Assembly (NCBI GenBank): GCA_002839825.1
Contig: PGYU01000015.1
Location: 1-60,023 of the forward strand
Direction: 5' to 3'
DNA: 60,023 nt
DNA from: Ignavibacteriae bacterium HGW-Ignavibacteriae-1
GTDB lineage: Bacteria; Bacteroidota; Ignavibacteria; Kapaibacteriales; UBA2268
Shown in pieces: positions 9,950 through 15,965 of the stretch. The notes under the pieces were generated by a model. The model ran no database searches and was not told the origin of the DNA. It worked only from the letters and a program-made list of their open reading frames with translations. Position 1 is the stretch's first letter; each line of letters begins with the position of its first letter. Both the position numbers and the translations under genes were made by a program.

Positions 9950-10012
9950 TCCGTCAGTTGTAACAACTGACGGGACAAAACAACTGACGGGACAAAACAC
10001 CTGACGGGACAA
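9950..10012. repeat. 17-base tandem repeat (three units) with an inverted partial copy
   Basis: The unit CAACTGACGGGACAAAA occurs at 9964-9980 and 9981-9997, with a slightly changed third unit at 9998-10012. A reverse-oriented CCGTCAGTTGT lies just before, giving a hairpin with the first unit. A related sequence (TTTTGTCCTGTCAGTTGTT) lies at 20184-20202, upstream of a nuclease gene. This copy lies just upstream of the ATP-cone nuclease gene. Confidence 0.75.
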
Positions 10013-11708: not shown

Positions 11709-11724
11709 TTGATGAGCAAGCCTT

Positions 11725-11949
11725 GTCTGAACTATGATTTTTGTGATTAGTGTGATTAGGAAGCTCTCAAATTCGCCATTCATCCGATGACTTGAAGTAT
11801 TCAGATTAATTGAATTGATAAAAGCTGTGGCACAACTAAGTGGGAGTCATCGGATGAATTATGGTGTCTCGTCATATTTTACAAAGAATAGACGAGTTAA
11901 GAATGCAATTCATAAAAATCATTCAAATCATAAAAATCATAGTTCAGAC
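11725..11949. repeat. MITE-like element 2 with a nested inverted repeat (225 bp)
   Basis: The outer ends are GTCTGAACTATGATTTTTGT (11725-11744) and its inverted form ending ATCATAGTTCAGAC (11949). Inside lies a second, unrelated inverted pair: ATTCATCCGATGACT (11778-11792) and AGTCATCGGATGAAT (11845-11859). This looks like one palindromic element inserted in another. No open frame of note. Confidence 0.75.
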
Positions 11950-11951
11950 AC

Positions 11952-13844
11952 TCACACTTTCACAAACATTTGCGTCCGACTGCCGATACGGACATAATAC
12001 ACTCCGCGTGGGAGATTCGAAACATCAATGCGTTTTAGATGTCCAACATCTCCAAGATGTTGGACATCTGCTAATTCAATCACACATTCACCAAGTGTAT
12101 TGATAATTTGAACACCGGAAACTTCGGAAGTTTCCAAAACTTCCGAAGTTTGGATTGTAATATATTCGCTTGCGGGATTGGGGTGGATGAATGAAACAGA
12201 AATTGGCTCGCTTACGCTTGCTTTGTTCATCGTTGTGAAATGCCGAGTGGGAGACCATTGACCGAATCCGGCAAAACAATAGCCACGAACTCGCCAATAG
12301 ATTAAACTTTTGTCAGGCAAATCTACTATTCTATGTTCTGTGCTTCTCAAAGTATCTTGAGAGAAGATTAAGTTATTATATTGGCTGTCTAATGATAGTT
12401 GCAGATGATAGCGTTCGGCATTGTTGAGCGGATGCCAACTGAGTGTCGTATCCGATGTTATTTCTATCGTATTGTCTTCGGGAGTTATTTGTTCGCCTTG
12501 CTCTAATCGGGTTCGGAAAGTATATGTCGGAGACCATTTTATTGTCTGTTCTTTCAAGGATGCGGCTCTCCAGTAATAGTCCGTGCAGTTTTCCAAACCG
12601 GAGACGTCCCATCTGAGCGAAGTTTGCATTTCGCTTACTTCGAGCGTGTTGTCGTGTATAATTTGCGTAAACTTGTCATCTTTAGCAAGTTGGAATACAT
12701 ATTTAGTAATATCATTTACCTTAGTCCAGCGAAAGGTGACATCTACTAACAAGCCTTTACTCAAGTCAGTCGGAGAAATCAATTCCGGTGCTCCAATATT
12801 CATATATACTGAATCTATTAAAGTAAATATGTCTCCGCTTGTCATCTCATTACCACGAATAGCTATTATTGGTCTGTTTCCTGAATAAGCAATTGAAGAA
12901 TAAGATACTATGCTAGTTCTTGGTAAAAAAACTCTTTTGAATGTTTTCCAACCGTCATCTGTCATAGCAATGACGCCATGACCACCTACCAATGTACCCA
13001 CATTTTCATCAAGCATATGGATTTGATACGCTCCGGGAGTCATTTCGGGAGCTATTATAGTATCGAGAATTATATCCCAAGACTTGCCATTGTCAATAGT
13101 TTTGAAAATTAATGTATTTCTAACGGGGCCTACCTGGTAGTTGAATCTATGAGCAATAATATAGCCAATATCATTATTGAGAAAATAAATATCCCAAACA
13201 TTAACGCCACTATCAATAGGAATTATTTCAAAAGTTTCACCACCATCTATAGTAAAATAATAATTTCTGTTACGATGGTAAAAACTAAAATTATTTTCAT
13301 CTTTTATGTGAATTGATGTTATGACAACAGAGGTGTCCGATATATCGGGTGTTATTATTTTATAAGTTTTCCAACCGTCTTTTGTCAAATAGACCCTGTT
13401 TCCAATATTAGCTAATCCAACAAGTGTATCACTCATCATAATTTCTCTGTCACGATGCTGAGTCCAAGAGTGAGTATATGAAGCATCTAAATTGAATGAA
13501 TCAAGAGCTTTACCAGCATTATTATACTTTATGACAAGATTTTCGTTTCTGGCAAGCAAAAATATAGAATTGAAATGGGGATAAGCAATATTTTCTGGAT
13601 TAAACCTCCAATCGCCTGAACCATTATTATCAAATATTAGATTCCAATTAAATCCCCCATTTGAAGAATAATAAATTTTGCCATAATTTCCTGATCTTCC
13701 GAAAAAAACACAATTCATGGAATCAGTACAAATGATTTTAACGGGAAGCAATTGAGCGTTTTCAAGTACATTAATCCATTTATCTTCCGATTTTAAAATT
13801 GAAAAATTAATTAAGAAAACTGCAAGGAATAGGAGAATCTTCAT
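11952..13844 (-). CDS. Secreted T9SS cargo with YCF48/BNR-like repeats and fibronectin-like domains
   Basis: The 630-residue protein has a signal peptide (about residues 1-19), then repeated beta-propeller motifs of the YCF48/sialidase-BNR kind (SSNGGFNW, TKDGWKTY, TIDGGETF, TIDNGKSW, TDDGWKTF) to about residue 340. Two fibronectin-III-like domains follow (about 355-450 and 455-545), then a type IX sorting domain of about 78 residues (HPNPASEYI ... RGVYYVRIGSRTQMFVKV). The protein should be exported by Sec, carried across the outer membrane by T9SS and attached to the surface or released. Its substrate is unknown. The sorting domain contains two DNA palindromes inside the coding sequence. Its stop lies just beside MITE-like element 2. 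Confidence 0.85.
   Translation of the reverse strand: MKILLFLAVFLINFSILKSEDKWINVLENAQLLPVKIICTDSMNCVFFGRSGNYGKIYYSSNGGFNWNLIFDNNGSGDWRFNPENIAYPHFNSIFLLARNENLVIKYNNAGKALDSFNLDASYTHSWTQHRDREIMMSDTLVGLANIGNRVYLTKDGWKTYKIITPDISDTSVVITSIHIKDENNFSFYHRNRNYYFTIDGGETFEIIPIDSGVNVWDIYFLNNDIGYIIAHRFNYQVGPVRNTLIFKTIDNGKSWDIILDTIIAPEMTPGAYQIHMLDENVGTLVGGHGVIAMTDDGWKTFKRVFLPRTSIVSYSSIAYSGNRPIIAIRGNEMTSGDIFTLIDSVYMNIGAPELISPTDLSKGLLVDVTFRWTKVNDITKYVFQLAKDDKFTQIIHDNTLEVSEMQTSLRWDVSGLENCTDYYWRAASLKEQTIKWSPTYTFRTRLEQGEQITPEDNTIEITSDTTLSWHPLNNAERYHLQLSLDSQYNNLIFSQDTLRSTEHRIVDLPDKSLIYWRVRGYCFAGFGQWSPTRHFTTMNKASVSEPISVSFIHPNPASEYITIQTSEVLETSEVSGVQIINTLGECVIELADVQHLGDVGHLKRIDVSNLPRGVYYVRIGSRTQMFVKV
12038..12068. 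repeat. Coding palindrome in the T9SS sorting domain (second loop, gene 1)
   Basis: GATGTCCAACATC (12038-12050) and GATGTTGGACATC (12056-12068) form a perfect 13-bp inverted repeat with a 5-base loop. It encodes DVQHLGDVGHL in the sorting domain. The identical palindrome sits at the same protein position in the neighbouring cargo gene (14171-14201). Confidence 0.9.
12119..12151. repeat. Coding palindrome in the T9SS sorting domain (first loop, gene 1)
   Basis: AAACTTCGGAAGTTT (12119-12133) and AAACTTCCGAAGTTT (12137-12151) form a 15-bp perfect inverted repeat with a 3-base loop; each arm is itself nearly palindromic. It encodes the repetitive stretch TSEVLETSEVSG. The related AGACTTCGGAAGTCT pair lies outside genes at 13999-14077. 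Confidence 0.9.
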
Positions 13845-13998: not shown

Positions 13999-14077
13999 AG
14001 ACTTCGGAAGTCTTTATAATTAACTTCAAGAAGCTTATTATAATCATATACTTTAGAAAATTAGACTTCCGAAGTCT
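13999..14077. repeat. Inverted repeat pair AGACTTCGGAAGTCT
   Basis: The left copy (13999-14013) and the inverted right copy (14063-14077) enclose 49 AT-rich bases. The motif is related to the coding palindrome at 12119-12151. It lies between the sorting-domain remnant and the end of the next cargo gene, so it may mark a recombination or insertion site. Confidence 0.75.
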
Positions 14078-14084
14078 TCATCTG

Positions 14085-15686
14085 TCACACTTTCACAAAC
14101 ATCTGCGTCCGGCTGCCAATACGCAGGTAATAAACGCCGCGAGGGAGATGCGAAATATCAATGCGTTTTAGATGTCCAACATCTCCAAGATGTTGGACAT
14201 CTGCTAATTCAATCACACATTCACCAAGTGTGTTGTAGATTTTGACTTCCTCATTATTACCAAGGGGTTGCAACCCCTTGTTTTCAATATATATTTGAAT
14301 ATATTCTGTTGCAGGATTGGGGCTAATTGTAGTGCTTATATGCACTGCTTCGGTGACGCTTGTTGGATTTGGGCAGATGCTGCTTGTCCTGTGAATGTTG
14401 TTCTGGAACATTGTCCAGTCGGGTCCTTGCCCGATACCTGCGGAAATTGCGTATGCTCTGCCGTAATTGTTTTGATAATCAGGATATTCGACAAAGCCTC
14501 CAACTATGAATACATCAAGTATTCCGTCGCCGTCAAAATCTGCAACTACGGGTGCATGGTCTATCGAAAACTCTTTCCCGATGTGGTCTGCGAGCTCAAG
14601 AGTCCAAATGACTGAAGCGTCAATGCCTCTAAGTGCGATTACTTGTCCGCCGGTAGTGCCAAAAATCACATCGGGCATTCCGTCATTGTCAATATCTGAT
14701 AGCGCTGCCCCACGAAATGATTGTTCGATATTGGGAATATCGTATTCCCACATTACCGAGCCGTCGCCTTTTAGGGCGTAGTAGCGGTAAAAGCTCGAAA
14801 AGACTAATTCGCAATATCCATCGCCGTCCAAATCGCCCACCACAACGGGCGAACCAATATATGAAATCGCCTTGAAACGCCATTTCATTGTGCCGTCTGC
14901 GGAATTGAGCGCAAAGAGATTGCCTTCGTAATCTCCTATGACCAAATCATCAATTCCGTCGCTGTCAAGGTCAACAACTGCCGTTCCATGATAGACGACA
15001 TCTTCCAAATCGAATATCCACATTAATTGCTGGTCGTAGCCGCGATATGCATAAACTTTGCTTTGATTATTTTCCTTGTCAAATTCCCACGAGGCAACTA
15101 CAAAGTCTAATTTTCCGTCGCCATCAAGGTCAACAATTGTCGGAGCAGTCTGAATCCATGAGTTCGTGTCCACTTTTAAGTCCCATTTTTTGATGCCATC
15201 GCTTGCGTTTATACATATCACATATCCACCGAATTGTCCGTGCAAAATTTCCAATTTTCCATCGCCATCAATATCTGCAATTGTAGGCGGCGAATCGCTT
15301 CCGCGTGTGAGGGTTTTCCATTTTACTTCGCCTGTGGAACCATCGAAACAATAGGTGTAGGGATTGCACGAACTTGCGACTATAACGTCAAGCAAGCCGT
15401 CGCCGTCAACGTCGTAAATGAGTGGCGCTGTGTCGTTGCATCCTTCCTGCCAATCGCTTGTATTGTACTTCCAGAGAAGTGTGCCATCATCTAAATTGAG
15501 AGCATAAACCATGCTATCGTTGCGATAACACCCGAATACTACTTCCAATTTGCCGTCATGGTCAAAGTCTGCGAGTGCGGATTGCCCGTATGAATTGTCG
15601 TTCAGGTCATACCACCACTTAATCTCCGGCACTTGTGCAATAGATTGGATTGCAACTAACGTAAAAATTAGAATCAAAGTTTTCAT
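14085..15686 (-). CDS. Secreted FG-GAP/VCBS repeat protein with T9SS sorting domain
   Basis: The 533-residue protein starts best at 15686 (MKTLILIFTLVAIQSIAQ, a standard signal peptide); a longer frame adds 33 residues that do not look like a signal. At least eight FG-GAP repeats with Ca-binding D-x-D-x-D-G loops follow (DFDHDGKLE, DVDGDGLLD, DIDGDGKLE, DLDGDGKLD, DLDSDGIDD, DLDGDGYCE, DIDNDGMPD, DFDGDGILD), predicting a seven- to eight-bladed propeller. The last 80 residues or so are a T9SS sorting domain ending SRTQMFVKV. It is a paralogue of its neighbour only in that domain. Two palindromes lie in the sorting-domain coding sequence. Confidence 0.88.
   Translation of the reverse strand: MKTLILIFTLVAIQSIAQVPEIKWWYDLNDNSYGQSALADFDHDGKLEVVFGCYRNDSMVYALNLDDGTLLWKYNTSDWQEGCNDTAPLIYDVDGDGLLDVIVASSCNPYTYCFDGSTGEVKWKTLTRGSDSPPTIADIDGDGKLEILHGQFGGYVICINASDGIKKWDLKVDTNSWIQTAPTIVDLDGDGKLDFVVASWEFDKENNQSKVYAYRGYDQQLMWIFDLEDVVYHGTAVVDLDSDGIDDLVIGDYEGNLFALNSADGTMKWRFKAISYIGSPVVVGDLDGDGYCELVFSSFYRYYALKGDGSVMWEYDIPNIEQSFRGAALSDIDNDGMPDVIFGTTGGQVIALRGIDASVIWTLELADHIGKEFSIDHAPVVADFDGDGILDVFIVGGFVEYPDYQNNYGRAYAISAGIGQGPDWTMFQNNIHRTSSICPNPTSVTEAVHISTTISPNPATEYIQIYIENKGLQPLGNNEEVKIYNTLGECVIELADVQHLGDVGHLKRIDISHLPRGVYYLRIGSRTQMFVKV
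14171..14201. repeat. Coding palindrome in the T9SS sorting domain (second loop, gene 2)
   Basis: Same 13-bp arms and 5-base loop as at 12038-12068, again encoding DVQHLGDVGHL. The DNA is identical in the two genes over the palindrome. Confidence 0.9.
14261..14280. repeat. Coding palindrome in the T9SS sorting domain (first loop, gene 2)
   Basis: A perfect 20-bp palindrome, CAAGGGGTTG joined to CAACCCCTTG. It encodes KGLQPLG. It occupies the same loop of the sorting domain as the different palindrome at 12119-12151 in the neighbouring gene. Confidence 0.88.
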
Positions 15687-15711
15687 TTTTTCACCCATGA
15701 TAATGATTTTA

Positions 15712-15747
15712 CAAACATAATAAAAACACTGTGAATAAGTTGCCAAA
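15712..15747 (-). promoter_or_regulatory. Possible promoter of the FG-GAP protein gene
   Basis: Minus strand: TATGTTTG at 15719-15712 fits TAnnTTTG; TTTG lies at 15747-15744 but the 24-base spacer is long. The start would be near 15705, about 20 bases before the preferred ATG, which supports that start codon. Confidence 0.4.
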
Positions 15748-15965
15748 AGGGGTGAATATTTTAGAATGAATTTTGAATATCCCATTGCTTATAAACAATT
15801 CAAATTCACACCAAACGTGATTAATCAATATTAAAAACCAATGAATTAATTGGATTTCTTTAAAGTTTGTAGATTTTTTTCAAATGAAAGCTTGATAAAA
15901 ATTAGCTTTGACTAAAAATTAATTTTCAATTGTTAAAATCTAAGTGAAATTATTTATATTCGCAT

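Follow-up and report, generated by a model that had tools for sequence, protein, structure and literature searches.

The window analysed here, a stretch of 60,023 nucleotides from Ignavibacteriae bacterium HGW-Ignavibacteriae-1, contains two genes whose products end in a T9SS sorting domain (Table 1). The domain of gene 1 reaches 31.6 bits against TIGR04183 (cut-off 23) and 46.1 bits, above the cut-off, against PF18962; that of gene 2 reaches 30.7 and 41.2 bits, both above the cut-offs. The body of gene 1 gives weak Sortilin/BNR-like and Fn3-like matches. An earlier note on this DNA had claimed two strong in-frame inverted repeats within the sorting domain of gene 1, and both are present (palindromes A and B), with the correction that the arms of the first are a perfect 15 bp instead of 13 bp. 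The arms of A lie at 12037-12051 (AGATGTCCAACATCT) and 12055-12069 (AGATGTTGGACATCT), those of B at 12119-12133 (AAACTTCGGAAGTTT) and 12137-12151 (AAACTTCCGAAGTTT); in each case perfect 15-bp arms enclose a 3-nt loop, and the 33 bp amount to 11 codons. The note had missed an identical copy of A and a further palindrome, G, both in the sorting domain of gene 2.

Table 1. Features of the two sorting-domain genes and their surroundings (window coordinates).
Feature	Coordinates	Strand	Description
Palindrome D, long form	11778..11859		Arms 11778-11792 and 11845-11859 separated by 52 nt; in the intergenic stretch that follows gene 1
Gene 1	11952..13844	-	Probable secreted protein ending in a T9SS type A sorting domain (11958-12188)
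Palindrome A	12037..12069		15-3-15; loop II of gene 1 sorting domain; encodes DVQHLGDVGHL
Palindrome B	12119..12151		15-3-15; loop I of gene 1 sorting domain; encodes QTSEVLETSEV
R element	13999..14077		REPIN-like element of 79 bp; two inverted near-palindromes of 15 nt separated by 49 nt; intergenic, adjoining the stop codon of gene 2 on its 3' side
Gene 2	14085..15785	-	FG-GAP / PQQ-like propeller protein; T9SS sorting domain at 14094-14327
Palindrome A, second copy	14170..14202		Loop II of gene 2 sorting domain; identical to gene 1 copy
Palindrome G (CAAGGGGTTGCAACCCCTTG)	14261..14280		Loop I of gene 2 sorting domain

Four inverted repeats with 15-bp arms and a loop of at most 8 nt occur in the window and none in 100 dinucleotide-preserving shuffles of it, and chance was set aside as their origin. 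A single arm of A clearly folds by itself into a hairpin with a 6-bp stem and a 3-nt loop. A single arm of B forms the same hairpin weakly, with 24 of 200 shuffles folding equally well. Since each arm can fold alone, A clearly and B weakly, both elements look like inverted doublets of small hairpins. The AlphaFold2 model of the gene 1 domain consists entirely of strands (mean pLDDT 79.7), and pLDDT falls below 50 only at residues 17-22 and 44-49, both in inter-strand segments encoded by the palindromes. Its top Foldseek match is the C-terminal domain of mirolase (8qb1), a T9SS domain, with a TM score of 0.66 and a weak E of 0.024. Elsewhere in the window, a perfect palindrome with 18-bp arms and the core CCCACGAATAAATTCGTGGG is found at 2378-2415, and the palindrome CCGTCAGTTGTAACAACTGACGG, which contains CGTC, at 9951-9973 and at other sites, solely intergenic among the stretches retrieved.

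Two loops of the sorting domain

Of 216 TIGR04183 candidates in the genome 150 were scored, and 149 of these were readable (C9:5190 was left unread). We counted inverted repeats with arms of at least 10 and at most one mismatch, excluding those outside the named families. By this measure 28 of the 149 readable domains hold a palindrome and 121, among the domains listed, lack an intact one, which agrees with the suggestion that palindromes sit in variable loops and that other domains do without them. Two loops are concerned. Loop I, between EYI[TE]I and the KI[FY]NTLGECV strand, is occupied by B (once), C (nine times), E (15) or G (twice), with one domain lacking an intact palindrome there; loop II, before RI[DN][VI]SHLPRGVYY, is occupied by A (seven), D (three) or F (ten) and is without a palindrome in eight domains. 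Eight combinations of the two loops occur among the 28. Loop I measures 8, 9 and 13 residues in the three measurable palindrome-free members, the 13-residue one being a decayed B, against 13-18 residues in 24 palindrome-bearing domains. Palindromes have also decayed in place at C43:148006, C5:33684 and L225. At least four more domain-like sites lie beyond the scored list (C40:553452, C12:124597, C7:3937 and C38:46879).

The passengers of the 28 palindrome-bearing domains, compared over at most their last 400 residues, fall into 19 groups, possibly an overcount since some upstream stretches are short. Mean likeness between copies was higher in the palindrome than in the 48-nt flanks for all five families compared (A 1.00 against 0.87, C 0.92 against 0.63, D 0.91 against 0.68, E 0.95 against 0.64, F 0.86 against 0.77), a comparison restricted to copies with at most eight mismatches from the consensus and thereby biased towards conserved palindromes. 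The loops of C42:2000, L220, L222, L234, L299, L302 and others hold recurring segments with no clear palindrome (PSTGSGSGN, TPSLRDTPPWKG, SPLEKRGLGG), which are probably other translated repeats.

Copies outside the domain and the transposases beside them

The core of motif 2, ACTTCSGAAGT, occurs at 37 places in the genome against three for the reversed control. The four of these 37 that fall in unrelated ORFs are at about background level. The short form, B, was found at three places, namely in gene 1 and, between genes, at C7:5735 and at C28:46027, the last of these with 14-bp arms. The 79-bp R form consists of the arms AGACTTCGGAAGTCT and AGACTTCCGAAGTCT 49-50 nt apart and was found as nine pairs; the relatives of motif 2 that the earlier note had placed outside genes at 13999-14077 are indeed such a pair, intergenic and 49 nt apart. 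Six of the nine pairs, including this one, directly follow the stop codon of a sorting domain, two flank the genome's Y1 transposase and one lies 359 nt past a domain stop; in six of nine the R core starts 12 nt from the first stop-codon base of a domain of the palindrome-bearing type. A similar relation appears behind gene 1, where the arms of long-form D are nested inside a 34-nt inverted repeat (88%) at 11724-11950: long D is to D as R is to B, and the 33-bp form of D is found in sorting domains.

Palindrome C has 29 places in the genome, 11 in loop I sequence of sorting domains (one a fragment) and 18 outside ORFs of at least 90 residues; no other ORF of that length contains one. The ten coding copies in a counted frame are all in one phase. 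Of the 18 intergenic copies, 13 have the 3' end of an ORF no more than 150 nt away. The 12 nt flanking the intergenic copies of C are non-random, with A at -6 in 29 of 36 flanks and C at -3 in 20 of 36, perhaps a sign that the element is wider or that it prefers certain targets. When up to three mismatches were allowed, 12 of 24 family genomes contained C, and 16 genomes from other families of the order had no copy.

The distribution of A is different. The expectation of copies outside genes held for motif 2 and its relatives and failed for motif 1 (A), as all nine copies in this genome lie in sorting-domain sequence, eight in open genes and one at C7:3937. The latter probably sits in a domain remnant, since the ORF scan gave no gene there and yet the frame reads as a domain end. 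A lone 13-nt A arm at C42:7746 proved to be an ordinary coding match and no element. Across 54 genomes of the family, at a tolerance of two mismatches, the copies of A number 89 in G017, nine in the window's genome, eight in G001, at most four in seven others and none in 44. It is in G017 that intergenic copies of A are found. Twenty of the 89 were inspected, taken from the top of the list rather than at random and excluding sites at the RAYT: 18 are intergenic, and the remaining two fall within other genes, where A is read in the frame that it also has in the window's genome. None of the 20 is in a sorting domain. With this copy number, these intergenic sites and a RAYT gene flanked by A in the same genome, A looks like an ordinary REP in G017, in the company of its RAYT, and like one that remains only inside the secretion tag in the genome studied here. 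The GTAG/CGTC foot is absent from A in G017 (0 of 46 flanks) and from C in the window's genome (0 of 36 flanks), so we call A and C REP-like and not classical tagged REPs. F starts with GTAG and ends with CTAC, the stem of E contains GTAG, and I contains CGTC.

The window's genome has one Y1 transposase above the Pfam cut-off (PF01797, 26.6 bits, cut-off 23), which has four R arms on one flank and two on the opposite flank. Its sole NCBIfam match is REP_Tyr_transpos (NF047646) at 64.5 bits, below the equivalog cut-off of 80. The motifs THFHFL and YIH.NP are invariant in four aligned proteins (this one and three relatives). With this alignment, the RAYT subclass was found, at E of at most 1e-25, in nine of the 54 family genomes with 11 gene loci (13 matches). 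Palindromes flank both sides of all 11 loci; one locus has a single arm as its right flank, another lies at a contig end that truncates the left copy, and in one pair the end sequences differ. The flanking type is R, which is B-like, in the window's genome, A at G017:C93, C in G012 (the locus with one arm on the right), D in G021 and at G017:C6, H in G015 and F-like in G005 (the locus at a contig end), with four other types in G009, G011, G017:C106 and G054. In four of the 11 loci (L269, L271, L272, L274) the palindrome or its remnants also lie inside the RAYT gene, immediately behind the HUH strand. The gene keeps an open frame in three of the four; at G017:C93, which has a repeated DVQHHQEK there, the frame looks broken. 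The core CCCACGAATAAATTCGTGGG of the 18-bp palindrome described above also occurs twice beside the G021 RAYT (L269, at 2120 and 2244) and possibly belongs to another repeat family.

In a scan that detects short-loop palindromes only, none of 25 other Y1 loci in relatives has one palindrome on both sides, and the two subclass members of G029, a genome outside the family, showed no flanking palindrome. The pairing of gene and repeat is also incomplete. No RAYT flanked by E, the commonest occupant of loop I, or by G was found; A-flanked RAYT genes were found only in G017 among the 54 genomes; in the window's genome we found no RAYT for A, C or D; and no member of the subclass was found in G001 or G002, both of which carry palindromes (these MAGs are 98-99% complete). 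Across the phylum, 26 RAYT loci (two without a readable frame) showed, in the scan used, about the same palindrome on both sides in five cases, and at least ten 12-mers common to the two flanks in 16, so that flanks are less uniform outside the family than inside. Among 24 genomes C occurs in seven of eight with the subclass and five of 16 without (Fisher p 0.027), a modest association uncorrected for kinship; for at least three copies of C the numbers are six of eight and two of 16 (p 0.005, likewise uncorrected).

Loop occupants in counterpart genes and other genomes

In two genomes of the same genus (G001 and G002), 25 of the best-scored 30 of 66 sorting-domain matches have a palindrome in the domain, every family keeping its own loop. 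Twelve of these loci have a best passenger match of 74-95% in the window's genome, taken one way only. Two of its genes are each matched by two loci, near copies or paralogues, and not all twelve counterparts are therefore orthologues. Ten of the twelve differ in the palindrome of at least one loop. Gene 2 carries G and A and its G001 counterpart C and A (passenger 86%), C40:468103 carries E and A against C and D in G001 (86%), C5:35055 carries C and D against E and F in G001 (85%) and C42:2000 carries C against E in G002 (90%). The occupants agree in type at the other two, L208 and L228, and also for C28:48376 at 69%. No insertion was caught as an exact pair of empty and filled alleles with a clean junction.

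The passenger of C12:6265 (G000:C12 5146-6490) is 94.7% alike to that of L207 in G002 over 1351 aligned nt, including 300 identical nt. The domain is 80-93% alike outside the loops, loop II differs and the downstream DNA is unrelated, a comparison which points to exchange of the domain end. The likeness of this passenger between two species is perhaps a case of transfer with a changed sorting-domain end.

Among the best 80 of 253 loci in a scan of named genomes of other species, 13 came from JAGXRP01 and 67 from elsewhere, by title mostly Kapabacteria, Ignavibacteria and other Bacteroidota MAGs; 17 of these 67 carry loop palindromes, the short hairpin of L327 being left uncounted. Several types are new, among them AACTTTCCGAAAGTT in L309, as at the G009 RAYT, AGATGTACTCCACCT in L300, similar to the type beside the G054 RAYT, and AGACATCCGATGTCT in L305, similar to the type beside the G011 RAYT. 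F-like palindromes lie in loop I in L304, L320, L331 and L337, as opposed to loop II in the window's genome, which makes repeated capture by the loops probable. In 17 distinct F-like sequences, all admitted with at most two mismatches, paired positions had changed on both sides 47 times and on one side 11 times. JAGXRP01 (isolate CROMO_A_116; L278 and others) is labelled Desulfobulbaceae, a label that looks wrong given its identity to G001, of the same genus as the window, in all five loci compared and its many T9SS sorting domains.

Origin of the palindromes

The nearest known kind of element is the REP/REPIN with its RAYT. The Rickettsia palindromic elements to which the earlier note pointed are, by description, likewise palindromic repeats accepted in proteins (as cited in PMC3733652). 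According to PMC3116915, PMC3733652 and PMC8266576, REPs and REPINs are short multicopy palindromic repeats that form inverted doublets, lie in many cases at gene ends and enclose the RAYT gene between copies, with one repeat type per RAYT, and the palindromes described here share the multicopy, doublet, gene-end, RAYT-flanked and RAYT-matched features so outlined. They differ in that A and C have no GTAG/CGTC foot, in that 15-nt arms with a 3-nt spacer (33 bp) exist alongside a 79-bp long form, and in that the coding copies gather in two loops of one domain family. Of the transposase groups treated in PMC6006769, TnpA-REP 2.6 is mostly from Bacteroidetes, has the motif YIH[QN]NP and has genes flanked by atypical secondary structures that are present elsewhere in the genome, and TnpA-REP 2.4 has REP insertions within the transposase gene, as do the four RAYT loci here that hold palindromes in the gene. 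In a comparison by motifs, the HUH motif here is THFH, as against NH[LIV]H (2.6) and NH[IFV]H (2.4), and YIHQNP stands against the YIxNNP of 2.4. REPs within genes encode extra residues in several bacteria, in varied genes of which many serve DNA repair, and RPE-4 and RPE-6 of Rickettsia conorii are counted as CGTC repeats (PMC3733652); in contrast, every coding copy of A or C counted in the window's genome belongs to one domain family. In mitochondria of Nematomorpha, perfect palindromes in coding DNA have arms that both encode conserved protein (PMC6649704), whereas here the loops are variable and the repeats are dispersed families. Intragenic REPs, REPs within the RAYT gene and Bacteroidetes RAYTs with atypical flanks are already known (PMC3733652, PMC6006769). 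In searches of the open literature we found no description of palindromes in T9SS sorting domains, nor of two loops of that domain filled by many REP-like families.

We consider it likely that REP-like elements were caught in permissive loops of the T9SS sorting domain and that recombination among domains then spread them. The palindromes would be small REP/REPIN-like repeats, immobile alone, each family matched to a RAYT (HUH/Y1) of one subclass. These RAYTs would most likely have copied them as single-stranded hairpins, as proposed for REPs (PMC3116915, PMC8266576); that a RAYT moved the palindromes is the most likely reading of the gene-repeat pairing and of the copy numbers. The elements would settle mainly between genes, and a few would have inserted in frame, into two surface loops of a single sorting-domain subfamily, where the extra 10-11 mostly polar residues may be tolerated with sorting presumably unharmed. 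Filled loops could then have reached paralogues through recombination or gene conversion, which would mix the types of loop I and loop II and swap palindromes; to a large extent, the passage from one sorting domain to another resembles recombination of loops or of domain ends rather than a new insertion each time. The earlier idea of a mobile-type repeat accepted as protein is strengthened by the matching RAYTs and by the differing loop occupants of counterpart genes, and weakened for E and G, since no matching RAYT was found for them. Low-complexity codon bias was set aside as an origin in view of the perfect DNA palindromes, the intergenic copies and the matching RAYTs.

Food for a bolder reading is the sorting domain itself, which might be a mobile protein tag moved onto unrelated genes through the REP-like elements in its loops and behind its stop, by RAYT activity or by palindrome-provoked recombination. 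The 19 passenger groups, the six of nine R pairs at a domain stop and the comparison of C12:6265 with G002 are consistent with this idea, which we nonetheless hold to be unlikely; if true, a jumping tag would make new proteins T9SS cargo.

Somewhat less probable still is that selection acts on the DNA or RNA itself, with hairpins near the 3' end of the message stabilising or terminating it and the residues as a by-product. The hairpins of gene 1 are strong (z -8.2 and -6.8 as DNA), and the positions of R behind sorting-domain stops and of intergenic C near ORF ends would fit such a role. However, 121 of the 149 sorting domains manage with no intact palindrome, in some domains palindromes have decayed in place (C43:148006, C5:33684 and L225), and the gene 1 hairpins lie within translated sequence, their ends some 80 and 165 nt short of the stop. 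A function as terminators was set aside, since the coding copies precede the stop. Plain duplication of sorting-domain genes, in which palindromes were present once and were inherited with no mobile element involved, would agree with the single phase and similar flanks of the coding copies within each family of this genome, and with the 83-93% likeness between the gene 1 domain and its best DNA matches that include A. It leaves unexplained the seven families in two loops, the intergenic copies, the RAYT flanks, the differing occupants in counterparts and the change of loop of the F-like palindromes; as a full account it is contradicted, and we think it very improbable, but duplication remains part of the spread. 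Least probable of all is that the loops are a diversifying device, with palindromes swapped for the benefit that loop variety brings to secreted tags. The eight combinations and the differences between counterpart genes might suggest it; against it, identical residues come back many times over in one frame, and on the usual view of T9SS the tag is removed or buried once the protein has been secreted.

Under the reading we favour, capture of REP-like elements followed by recombination, a peptide such as DVQHLGDVGHL or PSEGFEPSEG, where an annotated surface protein contains one, is a translated repeat rather than a conserved motif. Selfish-looking palindromes would here become protein at a predictable place, through repeated captures in two loops of one fold and beside an identified subclass of transposase. 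Palindrome A is plentiful only in the genome in which its RAYT was found; in the window's genome it survives only in the secretion tag. The system may therefore serve as a natural experiment on the acceptance of mobile DNA in proteins and on whether RAYTs spread REPs.
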